Source of the DNA: Methanoregula sp. PtaB.Bin085
GTDB lineage: Archaea; Halobacteriota; Methanomicrobia; Methanomicrobiales; Methanospirillaceae
Assembly: GCF_002067035.1 (NCBI RefSeq)
Contig: NZ_MVQB01000034.1
Coordinates: forward strand, 1 to 64,000
Reading direction: 5' to 3'
DNA: 64,000 bases
Part shown: one piece after another, positions 54,708 through 61,970 of the stretch
Layout: each line of letters opens with the position of its first letter
How positions within the stretch are numbered: position 1 is the stretch's first letter
Notes under the pieces: model-generated
The model's database searches: none
Seen by the model: the letters and a program-made list of their open reading frames with translations, nothing else
What the model was told of the DNA's origin: nothing
Translations under genes and position numbers: made by a program

Positions 54708-54791
54708 GTACGATCAGGTTGGTGTCATACTACTAAAACCGTGCGGAGCAACCTTCATGGAGGTAAAAAAAAGAGTGGATGTGTCGCCGGT

Positions 54792-57700
54792 TTACTTCGG
54801 ACCGGTTGCCCAGAAGCTGAGCCACTTGGGCAGCACGAAGATGAACCGGAAGTCCTGGTCGCTGCCGTAGTCGTTCGAGACATACAGCCGTGCGAAGTAG
54901 ATACCCGGCTCGGCGTAGAGATGGGTCGGGTTCTCGTCCAGTGACTGCGATCCATCACCGAAGTACCAGACACGGTGGGTCGGGTTGTTGAGCGACTTGT
55001 CGGCAAACCTGACCGTCATCGGGGGTGTTCCCCAGGTCTTGTCCGCGAACATCACGGCAACAGGCTTCTTGCCGGCGGGGGGCTGGTCGCCGCCCTTGAC
55101 CGTGATATAGTTGCTCTTGATCTCCATGTCGGAGCCCGCCGCGTTGGTCACCACGAGCTTGACGGCATACGAGCCTGCCGTGCTGTAGGTGAAGGTCGGG
55201 TTCTTCTCGGTGGAGTCGACGACCCCGTCATTGTTGAAGTCCCAGCTCCGTTCGGTGATCCCGTCGCCCCTGCTCATGTCCGTGAACTTGACGGTCAGAG
55301 GAGCCTTGCCGGACTGCTTGTCAGCCTTGAAGTCTGCGCTGGGTTTCTCAAGCTGGCTGACTTTAATATAGTTCTTCTTGAACCTGGTGTCCGAGCCACC
55401 GGCATTGGTGACCGTCAGGCTGACGTTATAACTGCCTTTTGTTGCGTAAACATACTCGGGATTCTTTTCTGAACTGTCAGTGATTCCGTCACCGTTGAAA
55501 TCCCATGCCCATGAGGTGATGTCCTTGCCAATGGACTTGTCGGTGAACTTCACGGTGAGGGGTGCCGTACCGCTCGTCGGCTTTCCTACGAACTCAGCCC
55601 TGGGCTTTGCCGGAACAACCGCCAGGACACTGATATAGTCTGTCTTTGTCGCGGTTGTCGACCCTCCCCTGCCTTTTACGGTAAGCGCAACCGTGTAGTT
55701 GCCGGCCGTACCGTAGGTGTGGACCGGGTTCTGCTCGGTGCTGTCAACGGTGCCATCGTTGTTGAAGTCCCAGCTCCAGCTGATCAGGCCGATGCCCTTC
55801 GAGTCGTCCGTGAACTGGACGGAGAGCGGGGCATATCCCGTGGTCAGGTTGGCCGAGAAGTCAACGACCGGTGCGGGAACCGCAGAGACGTTGATATAGC
55901 CGACCCTGACCGACGTGTTGCTGCCGCCGCCATTCGCGACCGTAAGGTTCACGGAGTAGTTGCCGGCCGTTGTGTAGGTATAGTCCGGGTTCTGTTCACT
56001 GCTGTCGACCGTTCCGTCGTTTTGGAAGTCCCATGCCCAGGACTCAACGGTACCGGTCGAGGCATCCGTGAACTGGACCGGGAGCGGGGCGTACCCGCTG
56101 GTTATGTTCGCCGTGAAACCGGCAGCCGGTGCGGTCACGGTAGCGGTGATGTACTGCTCCTTTGTGAGCGTGTTCGATCCGCCGGCATTGGTGACGGTCA
56201 GGCTGACGTTGTAGGCTCCCGGCACGGAGTATTCGTGTGCGGGGTTCTGTTCATTGCTGTCAACGATACCGTCGCTCTCGAAGTCCCATGCCCATGCAGT
56301 GATGCTGTCACCGGTAGATTCATCGGTGAAGAGGACCGCGAGCGGCGCGGGGCCGGAGGTCGCGTTGGCGCTGAAGTTCGCGACAGGTGCCGCGGGGCTG
56401 ACAACGATATAATCAGCCTTGACTTCACTGGCATTTCCCGCAGTGTTTGATACCGTGAGGTTTACTGTGTAGCTCCCTGCTGCAGCATACACATGCTGCG
56501 GGTTCTTGTCGGTGCTGTCAATGGTGCCGTCGTTCTCGAAGTCCCATGCATACGCGCTGATTGCGTCACCGGTTGAGGCATCCGTGAACTGGACGCTCAG
56601 CGGGGCAGCTCCCTGGAGTGGATCTGCGGTGAAGTCTGCAACAGGTTTTGCGAGAGGTTCAGCAACAGTGATATATCCGGTCTTTGCCTCGTCATCGGAC
56701 CCGCCGGGACCCGTGACAGTGAGGCTGACCGCATAAGTACCTGCCGCGCCGTATACATGCGCGGGGCTCTGTTCGGTGCTGTCGATAGTGCCGTCATTTT
56801 CAAAGTCCCATGCCCATGAAGTGACTTTCCCTGTTGATTCGTCCGTGAAGAGGACCGCAAGCGGTGCGTCGCCGGATGTCTGGTTCGCAGAGAACGCTGC
56901 CACCGGTGCCGGATCGAGGACCGTGATATAATTGGTCTTCACTGCATAGTCCATCCCGCCGGGGCCTGTTACCCCCATGTAAATGGTGTAAACACCCGGA
57001 TCGTTGAAGGTCCAGGACGGGTTGTGGTCAGTGCTGTCCGGCTGAAGATCTCCGGTGAAGTCCCAGTAGATTGCGGTAATGTCGCCTGTCGACTCATCCG
57101 TGAACTGGACGGTCAGCGGTGCAACACCGGAGAGGGGGTTTGCGGAGAACTTTGCATCAGGTGCTGCCACCGCCGGCGTCACCGTGATATAATCGGTTTT
57201 TATCTCGTCATCGTATCCGCCGGGGCCGGTTACGTTCAGGGTAACGGTGAAGGTACCGGCATGACTGTACGTGTACACGGGTTCTTTCTCTGTCGAGTCG
57301 ATGATGCCGTTGCTGTCAAAGTCCCATGCATAGCCGGTGATATCGCCGGTCGAAGCATCGGCAAACCGGACCGTGAATGGTTCTGCACCGCTGGTATTAT
57401 CGGCAAAGAACCCTGCAACAGGTGCAGGAATGACTGCCTGGGTTACGGTAATGTAATCGGCCTTGGTACTATCTCCATCGCCACCGGTACCGGTCACGAC
57501 GAGTTTCACGGAGTACGTGCCGGCACTGGAATACGTATATTCGGGATTCTGTTCGTTGCTGTCGACGGTACCGTCATTGTCAAAGTCCCATGCCCATGCG
57601 GTGATACCTTCACCGGTTGAGAGGTCAGTGAACCTGACAGTCAGGGGCGCATCACCGCTGGTCGTGTCGGCAGAGAAGTCTGCGACCGGTGCGGGGATGA

Positions 57701-58760
57701 CCGGTGACGTTACAACGATATAGTCAGGTTTTGTGACAACATCGGACCCGCCGTCATTGGAGACGGTGAGTTTTACCGTGTAGGTACCGGGATCGTTGTA
57801 GGTATAGCTGCAGTCCCTGGTCGTGCATTCGTCCGTACCGTCATTGTTGACATCCCATGACCAGGACGTGATGTCGCCTGTTGATTCGTCAGTGAAGAAC
57901 ACATCCAGCGGTGCATCGCCGGTCAGCGGGCTGGCCGCGAAGTTACCGACCGGGGGAACAACCTGTGTGTTTGTGGGGGTCGGTGTCGGGGTAGTCGTGG
58001 GTTCGGTTACGGTGATGAGATCAGTCTTGGTAATCTCTCCATCGCCACCGGCGCCGGACACGACAAGTTTCACGGAGTATGTTCCGGCACTGGCGTAGGT
58101 GTATTCAGGGTTCTGTTCGTTGCTGTCGACGTTTCCGTCATTGTCAAAGTCCCATGCCCATGCGGTGATACCGTCACCGGTCGAAAGGTCAGTGAACCTG
58201 ACAGTCAGGGGTGCATCGCCGCTGGTCATGTCGGCAGAGAAGTCTGCGACCGGTGCGGGCGTCACACCGGCGACAGTAAAGGACCCGGTTCGGATCGTCG
58301 GGCTCATAAGGTCGCCGTTGTCAGCATCCAGCTGTTTTATGGTGACGGTAACCGGTGTCGTACCCGCAGCATCGGCGCGGAGCGTCAGGTTTGCCAGGAT
58401 AACATCATGGGATCCCGCCCCGATGTTCTTTTCAAGGTCAAGGCCCCGTATTGAGACAGAATCTGCCGGCAGGGGGCCGGTACGGGGAAGGATGACCCAG
58501 TCAGGATACCTGACTGCAGTAATTTCTCCGATGTCGGTACTTGTCAGAGTTACGGTCATATCGAACCCGGCGAGTCCGTCGGGAACTTCGTCAAGGATGA
58601 CAGGATATTCGACCGTCTCTCCGACTGCTCCTGCCGATACGTCCTGCCCGGTCAGCTGGAAAGCCGATGCGGGAAGGACAATAAAGGCCAGGAGGAGCAG
58701 GGTCACCAGGAGGGATACAAGCCCGCCCGGTGACCGGCTCTTATTGTGTATGGTATTCAT
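54792..58760 (-). CDS. Scaffold-like surface protein: cohesin-like domain plus 13 PKD domains
   Basis: The 1322-residue protein begins with a signal peptide (LLVTLLLLAFIVLPASAFQL). A cohesin-like domain follows (about 30-150; QDVSAGAVGETVEYPVIL, GLAGFDMTVTL, ILANLTLRA), then 13 PKD domains in tandem, each with a WDF/WDFNNDG core. The last ends SDQDFRFIFVLPKWLSFWATGPK without a membrane anchor. The start ATG at 58760 is 1 nt after the stop of the NHL-dockerin gene, with GAGGAG in that gene's end. The dockerin-like tails of its two neighbours suggest partners that dock onto it. Confidence 0.9.
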   Translation of the reverse strand: MNTIHNKSRSPGGLVSLLVTLLLLAFIVLPASAFQLTGQDVSAGAVGETVEYPVILDEVPDGLAGFDMTVTLTSTDIGEITAVRYPDWVILPRTGPLPADSVSIRGLDLEKNIGAGSHDVILANLTLRADAAGTTPVTVTIKQLDADNGDLMSPTIRTGSFTVAGVTPAPVADFSADMTSGDAPLTVRFTDLSTGDGITAWAWDFDNDGNVDSNEQNPEYTYASAGTYSVKLVVSGAGGDGEITKTDLITVTEPTTTPTPTPTNTQVVPPVGNFAASPLTGDAPLDVFFTDESTGDITSWSWDVNNDGTDECTTRDCSYTYNDPGTYTVKLTVSNDGGSDVVTKPDYIVVTSPVIPAPVADFSADTTSGDAPLTVRFTDLSTGEGITAWAWDFDNDGTVDSNEQNPEYTYSSAGTYSVKLVVTGTGGDGDSTKADYITVTQAVIPAPVAGFFADNTSGAEPFTVRFADASTGDITGYAWDFDSNGIIDSTEKEPVYTYSHAGTFTVTLNVTGPGGYDDEIKTDYITVTPAVAAPDAKFSANPLSGVAPLTVQFTDESTGDITAIYWDFTGDLQPDSTDHNPSWTFNDPGVYTIYMGVTGPGGMDYAVKTNYITVLDPAPVAAFSANQTSGDAPLAVLFTDESTGKVTSWAWDFENDGTIDSTEQSPAHVYGAAGTYAVSLTVTGPGGSDDEAKTGYITVAEPLAKPVADFTADPLQGAAPLSVQFTDASTGDAISAYAWDFENDGTIDSTDKNPQHVYAAAGSYTVNLTVSNTAGNASEVKADYIVVSPAAPVANFSANATSGPAPLAVLFTDESTGDSITAWAWDFESDGIVDSNEQNPAHEYSVPGAYNVSLTVTNAGGSNTLTKEQYITATVTAPAAGFTANITSGYAPLPVQFTDASTGTVESWAWDFQNDGTVDSSEQNPDYTYTTAGNYSVNLTVANGGGSNTSVRVGYINVSAVPAPVVDFSANLTTGYAPLSVQFTDDSKGIGLISWSWDFNNDGTVDSTEQNPVHTYGTAGNYTVALTVKGRGGSTTATKTDYISVLAVVPAKPRAEFVGKPTSGTAPLTVKFTDKSIGKDITSWAWDFNGDGITDSSEKNPEYVYATKGSYNVSLTVTNAGGSDTRFKKNYIKVSQLEKPSADFKADKQSGKAPLTVKFTDMSRGDGITERSWDFNNDGVVDSTEKNPTFTYSTAGSYAVKLVVTNAAGSDMEIKSNYITVKGGDQPPAGKKPVAVMFADKTWGTPPMTVRFADKSLNNPTHRVWYFGDGSQSLDENPTHLYAEPGIYFARLYVSNDYGSDQDFRFIFVLPKWLSFWATGPK

Positions 58761-58761
58761 A

Positions 58762-59919
58762 TTACAACTCCTCGTATATCGTGACGATATCGTCAAAGTC
58801 CATACGGCCGTTCCCGTTGAAATCAAAATACGGGACCGGTTCGTGTTCGCTGATCCAGTCCATCTGGTCGTACAGGAGGACAATGTCGGCAAAATCCGCC
58901 CTGCCGTTACCGTTCAGGTCCTCGTAAAGACCATCACCATCGGAGTCGGTCGGGGCATTCGCCATACCGGGCAGAGGCAGGACCTCTGCCGTGAGGGCGA
59001 ACTTCTGGATTCGGTTGGTGCCGTACTCGCCGACATAGACATTTCCGGAAGAATCAACCGCAATGCCGGTTGGCGACTGGAACTGGCCGTCTCCCGATCC
59101 GATGCTGCCCCATTTTGTGACAAACGTGCCATCGGGCGTGAACTTCTGGACGCGGTTGTTGAAGGTGTCGGTCACATAGACATTTCCGGCATTATCGAGT
59201 GCAATACCACCCGGGTACTGGAATTTGCCATCGGTGTCGCCCATAGATCCCCATGTGCCCAGGAATTTCCCTTCAGAACTGAATTTCTGGATGCGGTGGT
59301 TGTTGGAATCGACAACATAGATAGTGCCGGAAGCATCGGCCGCGATCCCGGCAGGATTATCGAACTGGCCGTCTCCTGAGCCCTCTGATCCCCATGCCGT
59401 GATGAAGGATCCGTCCGGCGTGAACTTCTGGATGCGGTAATTGTACGCATCGGCCACGTAGACATTGCCATCGTCATCAGTGGCAACACCCGAAGGGGAT
59501 CTCAGCGATCCGTTGGCACTCCCGGCAGACCCCCATTTCGTGATGAAGGATCCATCGGGCGTGAATTTCTGCACGCGGTGATAACTCAGGTCCGTGACAT
59601 AGATGTTTCCCGCCGGATCGGCTGCAACGCCAAAGGGAGTATAGAACGATCCATTGGCACTGCCGGGGGATCCCCATTTCGTGATGAAGGTCCCGCCGGA
59701 GGTAAACTTCTGGATACGGCTGTTCTGCCCGTCGGCAACATAGACATTACCCTCGGGGTCGATCGCGATGCCGATGGGACGGATGAACTGCCCGTCTCCG
59801 GAACCCTGCGATCCCCATTTGGTAACAAAGCCGTACGTTTCCGCGGCAGTGACGCCAGGGACCAGCACGAGCAGGAACAGCATGGCTGCCGCTGCCAGGA
59901 TGGCTCTGTGGTGCGCCAT
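58762..59919 (-). CDS. Six-NHL propeller with C-terminal dockerin-like domain
   Basis: The 385-residue protein has a signal peptide (ILAAAAMLFLLVLVPGVTAA), six NHL repeats (about 25-310) of the form WGSxGSGDGQFxxPxGIA...GNVYVxDxxNxRIQKF, and two EF-hand-like Ca loops at the end (DLNGNGRADFADIVLLYDQM and DFNGNGRMDFDDIVTIYEEL), which resemble a dockerin. It starts 3 nt after the stop of the upstream gene, with GAGGTG in that gene's end. It could be a secreted ligand-binding propeller docked to the neighbouring cohesin-like domain. Confidence 0.92.
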   Translation of the reverse strand: MAHHRAILAAAAMLFLLVLVPGVTAAETYGFVTKWGSQGSGDGQFIRPIGIAIDPEGNVYVADGQNSRIQKFTSGGTFITKWGSPGSANGSFYTPFGVAADPAGNIYVTDLSYHRVQKFTPDGSFITKWGSAGSANGSLRSPSGVATDDDGNVYVADAYNYRIQKFTPDGSFITAWGSEGSGDGQFDNPAGIAADASGTIYVVDSNNHRIQKFSSEGKFLGTWGSMGDTDGKFQYPGGIALDNAGNVYVTDTFNNRVQKFTPDGTFVTKWGSIGSGDGQFQSPTGIAVDSSGNVYVGEYGTNRIQKFALTAEVLPLPGMANAPTDSDGDGLYEDLNGNGRADFADIVLLYDQMDWISEHEPVPYFDFNGNGRMDFDDIVTIYEEL

Positions 59920-59922
59920 CGG

Positions 59923-61560
59923 TTACACCTCGTCGTACAGGAGGACAACGTCGGCGAAATCGATCCGGCCGTTGCCATTGAAGTCAAAGAGGCTGAGCGG
60001 CTCGTTTGCCGTGATCCAGTCCATGTTCTCAAAGAACGTTACCACGTCATCGAAATCGATCCGGCCGTTGGCGTTCAGGTCCTCAAAGATCCCGTCGGCA
60101 TCAGTGTCAGTCGGGAGAGCGCCCTGGCCTGGCAGTGCAACCGGCTGCTCCGGAGTCTGCGTGGGAGTTGGCGTTGGAGTCAGTGTCGGTGTTGCACCGC
60201 CCGGGAAGGTCAGGTGGACCGCGTTGCCGGCAACCGGCGTATACGGCTCGTACACGGCCGTCACACTGAAGTAGTAGTCCTCGCCCGGCACGAGATAGCC
60301 TCCGAAATCGCCGCCATTGTAGTGCTGGGAGGCGTCGAGCGTGGCCGAGGTTACCGTCGGGTCAGAGAAGTAGACCATGTAGCCGTCTGCCGGGTATGCC
60401 GGGTTCGGGTTGGCATGAGAAACCACGATCTTGTTGTAGATCAGGTCGGGATCATTGATCTGCTGCCAGTGCACGACAACCTTGTTTCCCGAGACTTCGG
60501 CCGTAACCACCGGAGCAGTATGGACCGGCGTGGTGGTCGGTACCGTGGTTACTGGTGTGGTCGGGACTGTCGTGACAATGGTTGTCGGAACCGTGGTGGG
60601 TACCGTGGTAACCGTTGTCGGTATGGTGGTTGTGGTTGTAGGTATTGTTGTCGGAACGGTTGTTGGTGTCGATGTCGGTGTCGGCGTCGGGTTCACCGGT
60701 GTACCGTCCCATCCGGCGATCCGTGCGAACATATGCCAGGCAGCATAGGCCTTCAGGTTCCCGTTCAGGGCCTGCGTATGTGCAGGACTGCACTGGTACC
60801 AGTCGACGCCCTGTGTGTGGCTCGCCTGCCACTCGGTTGCCCAATTATGGGACGAACTGTTCCGCGTATAGTCACAGTTGTCGTTCGCATTCAGTTTCAT
60901 GTAGTTGACAAGGCCGTCGGGATCGTAACTCTCGATATCGGCAAAGTCATACAGGACCTTGTTATTGGCCCGTGCATATGCGCGGATCTGCTCGTTCCTC
61001 TGGTTGAGGTTGCCGCTTTCGCCTGTGCCGACAAGGTGCCCGGTCATGTACACGAATGTCACGCCCGGGTAATCCGACTCGAGCTGGTTCATGAGGTTCA
61101 GGTACGTGTTGATATTTGCTGCCGATGTGTCGGCCTGCCCGCACCAGGACCACATGACGACATTGACTTCGGGATGAGCGTTAAGATAATTCCGGGTTGC
61201 CGTTGCCCATGAGGTATAATCGGGATTACCGAGATCGCTCGCGCCGCTGAAGGGCGTGTCCCGGAAATCGAATGATCCGTCCCGGAACCTGTACGTTGCA
61301 CTCCCGTAAGGAGCCCCTGCAAATGTTGTCAGGCCATCCATACCGGTGACGATCTGGCTGCCATGCGATGTATGCCCGTACGCTACGTGGAGCGTCGACT
61401 TGGCATTCAGTATCGCGTTGAGCGGTACATCGTTCAGGTGGGTACTTGTGTGATCGATGATTATCGGCTCATCTGCTGCTGCCACGGGGGCGGTTAAAAT
61501 GCAGACAGTGAGAGCAAGTACCAGGATAAGAAAAAATCTGGTTTTTTGCAAACGGTTCAC
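59923..61560 (-). CDS. Secreted SGNH-like hydrolase with dockerin-like domain
   Basis: The 545-residue protein starts with GTG (GGAGG 6 nt upstream) and has a signal peptide (FFLILVLALTVCILTAPVAA). A ~300-residue catalytic-type region follows (VAYGHTSHGSQIVTGMDGL, VVMWSWCGQADTSAANINTY and HTQGVDWYQCSPAHTQALNG), similar in outline to SGNH hydrolases. A Thr/Pro linker (about 325-380), an Fn3-like or PKD-like sandwich (about 380-475) and two dockerin-like Ca loops (DLNANGRIDFDDVVTFFENM, DFNGNGRIDFADVVLLYDEV) follow. It begins the operon. Confidence 0.85.
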   Translation of the reverse strand: MNRLQKTRFFLILVLALTVCILTAPVAAADEPIIIDHTSTHLNDVPLNAILNAKSTLHVAYGHTSHGSQIVTGMDGLTTFAGAPYGSATYRFRDGSFDFRDTPFSGASDLGNPDYTSWATATRNYLNAHPEVNVVMWSWCGQADTSAANINTYLNLMNQLESDYPGVTFVYMTGHLVGTGESGNLNQRNEQIRAYARANNKVLYDFADIESYDPDGLVNYMKLNANDNCDYTRNSSSHNWATEWQASHTQGVDWYQCSPAHTQALNGNLKAYAAWHMFARIAGWDGTPVNPTPTPTSTPTTVPTTIPTTTTTIPTTVTTVPTTVPTTIVTTVPTTPVTTVPTTTPVHTAPVVTAEVSGNKVVVHWQQINDPDLIYNKIVVSHANPNPAYPADGYMVYFSDPTVTSATLDASQHYNGGDFGGYLVPGEDYYFSVTAVYEPYTPVAGNAVHLTFPGGATPTLTPTPTPTQTPEQPVALPGQGALPTDTDADGIFEDLNANGRIDFDDVVTFFENMDWITANEPLSLFDFNGNGRIDFADVVLLYDEV

Positions 61561-61970
61561 AATGTTCCTCCGTATATTCGTATTCTGCAACAGAGGAGAG
61601 GGAAGGGCAGATACAGGCAGGCGGTGGAAGTGTGCAGACAGATGCCCGGAACCGGGCATCAGGAACCTGACTGTACCGTAGTGCTCCTCGTGCCGTGACC
61701 GGCATGTCCCTGTGCGGGCACCCGGTCAACAGAAAACAAACAATGGAAAGTGACATAAATTCGTACGCCGGCACCAGTGCCATGCTCGAACCTGCAGGTT
61801 TGGATCTTGATCCCGCGGAATCCCCCGGGTTTAATACAAAAGGCCGGCTTTTACGGGATTTTCCGGGCTGAAATAGAATGAGTCAGGGTGCCTGGCCAGG
61901 TTGTCCTGTACCTGAGGATGCCAGAGTGTATGATCCTAAGATCAGGCAAAACCGGATACATTGTGGAGCC
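61561..61970. other. Intergenic region upstream of the surface operon
   Basis: The 410 nt between the operon start and sixA show no ORF worth naming. The region has a purine-rich minus-strand leader with GGAGG next to the operon start. I could not find a strong TATA box, only a weak AATATA patch too near the start. Confidence 0.4.

Follow-up and report, generated by a model that had tools for sequence, protein, structure and literature searches.

A three-gene cohesin–dockerin operon of Methanoregula, probably encoding a plug-and-socket system for surface display

The window considered here, that is, the whole stretch of 64,000 nucleotides that was analysed, belongs to the genome of Methanoregula sp. 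PtaB.Bin085 (2.9 Mb, 98% complete). Three back-to-back genes of its minus strand, A, B and C, make a cohesin–dockerin operon whose coordinates were confirmed exactly (Table 1). The genes are separated by 3 nt (A/B) and 1 nt (B/C), and purine-rich Shine–Dalgarno-like motifs lie in the preceding coding ends, GAGGTG inside A and GAGGAG inside B, so that the tight coupling described in the initial annotation holds to the nucleotide. Past the stop codon of C, a run of eight T makes a candidate archaeal terminator, where transcription would end. Judged by eye, all three products begin with a signal peptide, and all three would be secreted; no obvious membrane or sorting anchor was seen by eye in C. 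The six NHL repeats of B and the 13 PKD domains of C, both proposed at the outset, are found again in the counts given by Pfam.

Table 1. Features of the operon (positions in the window)
Feature	Position	Strand	Description
SD-like GGAGGA	61566..61571	-	before gene A; sequence
Gene A	59923..61560	-	GTG start 61560, stop end 59923; 545 aa; signal peptide, HYD, Thr/Pro linker, FN3-like domain, C-terminal dockerin-like tail
HYD domain of A	60703..61467	-	conserved motifs (see text)
FN3-like domain of A	60193..60522	-	named by eye; 59% identical homologue in the L073 cohesin protein
Tail of A	59926..60117	-	DxDxDG motif and two F-hand loops, DLNANGRIDFDD and DFNGNGRIDFAD
SD-like GAGGTG	59926..59931	-	within end of A, before B; sequence
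Gene B	58762..59919	-	ATG start 59919, stop end 58762; 385 aa; signal peptide, six NHL repeats (beta-propeller), C-terminal dockerin-like tail
Tail of B	58765..58956	-	loops DLNGNGRADFAD and DFNGNGRMDFDD
SD-like GAGGAG	58768..58773	-	within end of B, before C; sequence
Gene C	54792..58760	-	ATG start 58760, stop end 54792; 1322 aa; signal peptide, one cohesin domain, 13 PKD domains
Cohesin domain of C	58260..58661	-	AlphaFold2 pLDDT 95.4; Foldseek matches
13-PKD stalk of C	54831..58253	-	Pfam; conservation relative to L073
T8 run	54765..54772	-	past stop of C, candidate terminator; sequence

In a whole-genome search against Pfam Dockerin_1 (PF00404), the tails that end A and B reach 21.1 and 22.2 bits for a cut-off of 22.9, and two homologous tails encoded elsewhere in the genome exceed it (29.3 and 23.6 bits). 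A profile built from the six tails of the present genome retrieves them all, each at E < 1e-36, and they are therefore far beyond chance. All six are of one type, 58–70% identical to the tail of A. The four that do not belong to the operon are carried by a Kelch protein, an NHL protein, a GH18 protein and a fragment at a contig end that has no assigned domain. Both F-hand loops begin and end with an Asp (positions 1 and 12) that is 100% invariant among 99 distinct tails, and Asn predominates at positions 3 and 5. An Asp residue at position 12 is typical of dockerins, whereas ordinary EF-hands have Glu there, and the tails display the two F-hand loops with Asp 1 and 12 by which a type I dockerin is recognized. 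The duplicated dockerin-like calcium loops first read at the ends of A and B are thus upheld, both by the invariance of the ligand positions and by the six-tail profile. A further conserved motif, DxDxDGxxE, stands N-terminal to both loops, and in 132 of 171 tails the last residue is followed directly by the stop codon. Some relatives are rich in such tails: genomes G212–G218 and G196 have at least 20 to 26 each, with few cohesins detected.

The remainder of A is less readily named. Its main domain, which we term HYD, had been taken for that of a hydrolase, a label that must be considered a guess, since HYD has no convincing match to curated Pfam or NCBIfam families, nor to solved structures in a sequence search of the PDB. 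No match was found in plasmid records either, and a Pfam haemophore match to gene A was judged spurious. HYD is present in 17 of the 232 genomes of the order, with conserved motifs that include DLGNPD, WSWCG, FVYMTGH and DFADIE, and appears, as far as sequence tells, to be a conserved secreted domain family. Of these 232 genomes, 8 carry HYD joined to a tail and 4 have it behind a cohesin, with a tail gene directly upstream in three of the four; the present genome is counted in each set, since its second cohesin protein is itself a cohesin–HYD fusion. This second protein (L009:6880-8817, G000:C13) ends in DVGIYRPSTHMFYLR repeats that look FG-GAP-like by eye, and its multicopper-oxidase-like and NosD-like neighbours end in the same repeats. 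Between HYD and the tail, the FN3-like domain of A is so close to a domain of a cohesin protein in the relative HGW-Methanomicrobiales-3 (L073; Table 1) that domains appear to move between cargo and scaffold. In G019 (L166), a single chain was read as NHL, PKD, HYD and PKD, followed by an apparently different cohesin and a usual type I dockerin.

For the N-terminal domain of C, support from Pfam is marginal. In isolation, it scores 24.3 bits with Pfam Cohesin (PF00963), for a cut-off of 24.1, with its first 35 residues only being aligned; the family is absent from C in whole-protein and whole-genome scans, and matches only 10 of 37 relatives even at E <= 1. A cohesin profile compared by sequence with solved structures retrieved no cohesin; cohesins came up by comparison of folds alone. 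An AlphaFold2 model computed with 31 natural sequences (pTM 0.86, local confidence in Table 1) was compared with the PDB using Foldseek: the best 50 matches listed are all cohesin or cohesin–dockerin entries (best E 1.9e-10), and the cohesin of Archaeoglobus fulgidus, 2xdh, is matched at E 5.3e-9 with a TM-score of 0.74. The initial annotation had proposed a cohesin-like domain here and had named another fold as what would speak against it; the AlphaFold2 model settles the matter in favour of a predicted cohesin beta-sandwich. As for the stalk, the C-terminal third of C is its best conserved part in the comparison with L073 (75–81% identity). The last PKD domain was considered as a possible special anchor; used as a query, it retrieves PKD domains of the general sort from almost every relative.

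The arrangement of the operon is conserved. In L073 the order is HYD-tail, a second tail protein, NHL-tail and cohesin-PKD, i.e. the order A-B-C, which the initial annotation had suggested looking for in related genomes, with one gene added; the best aligned segments are 58–69% identical to A, B and C, and the additional tail protein, without Pfam match, is beta-propeller-like by eye. G172 shows HYD-tail, NHL-tail, another tail protein and then a cohesin at a contig end.

More generally, tail and cohesin go together. Profile searches in the 232 genomes of the order found a cohesin in 94, a tail in 86 and both in 81 (Fisher p 8e-42, a value that ignores the relatedness of the genomes); the 5 genomes with a tail but no detected cohesin, and the 13 with a cohesin but no detected tail, may reflect incomplete assemblies or other partners. 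The same is witnessed in the genus, with 7 cohesin genomes, 7 tail genomes and 6 with both among about 39, this one included (Fisher p 1.5e-5, again ignoring relatedness), and in a phylum sample of 393 genomes, where 77 of 83 tail genomes have a cohesin, as do 42 of 48 when those outside the order are considered. Within family f9, genus g51 has small genomes (1.0–1.7 Mb) with a cohesin-like domain and no detected tail, possibly served by another partner. We also considered 60 regions, one per genome, each centred on a cohesin: a tail is present in 48 of them, and in 38 a tail-ending gene lies directly upstream of a cohesin-starting gene, on the same strand and within 1.2 kb, for a chance expectation that we put at about 0.1% (some four tails per 2.4 Mb). 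Forty-one open frames in these regions hold both modules, always cohesin then tail. In Methanocalculus chunghsingensis (L087, 5226-16385), six consecutive genes bear a cohesin, and four of the six also end in a tail. Judging from these profiles, the cohesin–tail pair is widespread in Methanomicrobiales, and the standard cohesin profile overlooks it for the most part.

A structural model could be obtained for such a pair. Because B and C lie in different frames, we turned to Methanoregulaceae archaeon Prado136 (L083), where a single TAA, with no change of frame, separates a tail gene from the cohesin gene that follows it; reading this TAA as glycine gives a chain of 310 residues, a computational device and not a natural protein. 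The alignment included duplicate rows of the fused chain, with fewer rows for the tail. AlphaFold2 returned a tail with pLDDT of about 85, a cohesin at about 97, a disordered linker and a pTM of 0.65. An unplaced tail would be expected to give a pTM of about 0.46–0.53, and the value obtained requires an error on the tail of about 2 Å, which implies, indirectly, that the L083 tail would have a defined placement on the adjacent cohesin.

The operon, then, probably makes a plug-and-socket device displayed at the cell surface, in which the tails of A and B dock on the cohesin of C. C would present a single cohesin socket at the tip of its long PKD stalk, while A, with HYD, and B, with its NHL propeller, would bear calcium-binding dockerin plugs at their C-termini, either of which could occupy the socket. 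Four further plug proteins (NHL, Kelch, GH18 and one without assigned domain) would be potential alternative cargo, and the most economical reading is that of a PKD-stalked surface socket taking one of several exchangeable plug proteins. Having one cohesin per chain, C cannot by itself bring several enzymes together, which makes display or anchoring a better fit than a multi-enzyme machine; a surface-display system is the most likely role, and sheath or matrix remodelling, attachment of a partner or breakdown of polymers are candidate functions. Pairing of tail and cohesin is supported by co-occurrence, by adjacency and by the co-fold of the relative's pair; binding itself is something that we infer, as are calcium dependence, surface location, cargo exchange and the biological role of the operon proteins.

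Other ways of matching the modules have to be considered. The tails of A and B might bind other scaffolds, for instance the L009 cohesin, with the cohesin of C taking other dockerins or linking cells. Bacterial cohesin–dockerin pairs can be type-specific, and a genome that holds two cohesins and six tails leaves room for such a division of labour, but these six tails are of one type and tail genes directly adjoin cohesin genes in many genomes, which makes crossed pairing unlikely. That the two modules do not bind each other at all is less probable again. The tails would then be calcium-stabilized end caps or S-layer anchors, in keeping with the existence of DxNGNG-type loops in non-dockerin proteins, with weak EF-hand matches and with genomes that have one module only, and the cohesin-like domain would be a sugar-binding or structural beta-sandwich; co-occurrence, adjacency and the many cohesin–dockerin fusions argue against this, as do the cohesin fold itself and the pTM predicted for the L083 pair. 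Finally, the patchy distribution in the genus, 7 of some 39 genomes, might evoke the degenerate remnant of a cohesin–dockerin system, deprived of present function, yet intact frames, a conserved gene order, 58–69% identity in L073 and invariant calcium-ligand positions speak against it, and we give this idea very little credence.

The proposed docking of A and B on C may be an instance of something wider. It is conceivable, if rather doubtful at this stage, that a general plug-and-socket surface assembly is at work in the majority of Methanomicrobiales with a cohesin and in many further Halobacteriota, docking propellers, HYD, GH18 and other cargo on short or stalked sockets and through cohesin–dockerin adaptors, and so remodelling the surface or holding partners. 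If true, such an assembly would parallel the cellulosome without being cellulolytic, and standard profiles would largely miss it. With its two cargo genes and its scaffold of one socket, and with relatives that keep the arrangement, the operon makes a minimal system for testing binding and function. Cohesin–dockerin pairs serve as connectors in protein engineering, and a new type of pair could be useful to that aim. No paper on a cohesin–dockerin operon of Methanoregula was found in the literature searched, which covered little of the subscription literature. For Methanospirillum hungatei, a 2017 InterPro survey gives 1 cohesin and 9 dockerins, and for Methanoregula formicica it gives neither module (PMC5244752); the profiles used here detect cohesins and tails where annotation by domain yielded none or only a few. 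PMC5244752 and PMC9012536 describe as unknown or unclear the purpose that non-cellulosomal cohesins and dockerins serve in archaea. With the plug–socket pair present in many related archaea, where it is mostly unannotated, this purpose is therefore now testable.

Comparison with known systems allows the operon to be classified. It shares with the CipA-type cellulosome of Clostridium thermocellum the cohesin fold, the two F-hand dockerin loops ending in Asp and the use of secreted modular proteins. However, C has a single cohesin, as has the L009 protein, so that neither is a cellulosomal scaffoldin; no cellulase or cellulose-binding module was seen in the operon and the tail proteins examined, and the cargo of the tails in the genome comprises HYD, NHL, Kelch, one GH18 protein outside the operon and one protein without assigned domain. 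Given a single socket on each chain, and since no cellulase was seen in it, the operon is not a cellulosome, and membership in that class was rejected. Many cohesins and dockerins are also known from ANME archaea, in which some chains, in the description given by PMC9012536, combine several cohesins with a dockerin, scaffoldin-like proteins having up to five cohesins and the reported cargo including ABC transporter binding proteins. The module types are the same (PMC9012536, PMC5244752) and were detected with the same profiles at L080 (Methanophagales, ANME-1), whereas the present operon has one cohesin per chain and HYD and NHL cargo. At L080 the row of genes runs tail, cohesin-cohesin-tail, cohesin-tail, cohesin, an order suggestive of cargo followed by adaptors and an anchor. 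An archaeal non-cellulosomal cohesin and dockerin have also been described from A. fulgidus (Bayer, 1999; Haimovitz, 2008; Peer, 2009; as cited in PMC9012536). The fold of 2xdh matches that of C (TM-score 0.74), although the sequences are only 12% identical; the operon of Methanoregula differs in having two tail genes with one cohesin gene that encodes a 13-PKD stalk, and in the DxDxDG motif that its tails add ahead of both loops. As in those archaeal systems, the modules are borne by proteins that, from signal peptides seen by eye, are secreted, and show no link to cellulose degradation. The initial annotation had seen in this scaffold a distinct design: the single cohesin on a PKD stalk is indeed there, but archaeal non-cellulosomal modules were already known, and the operon is thus a variant of this known archaeal kind and not a separate class.
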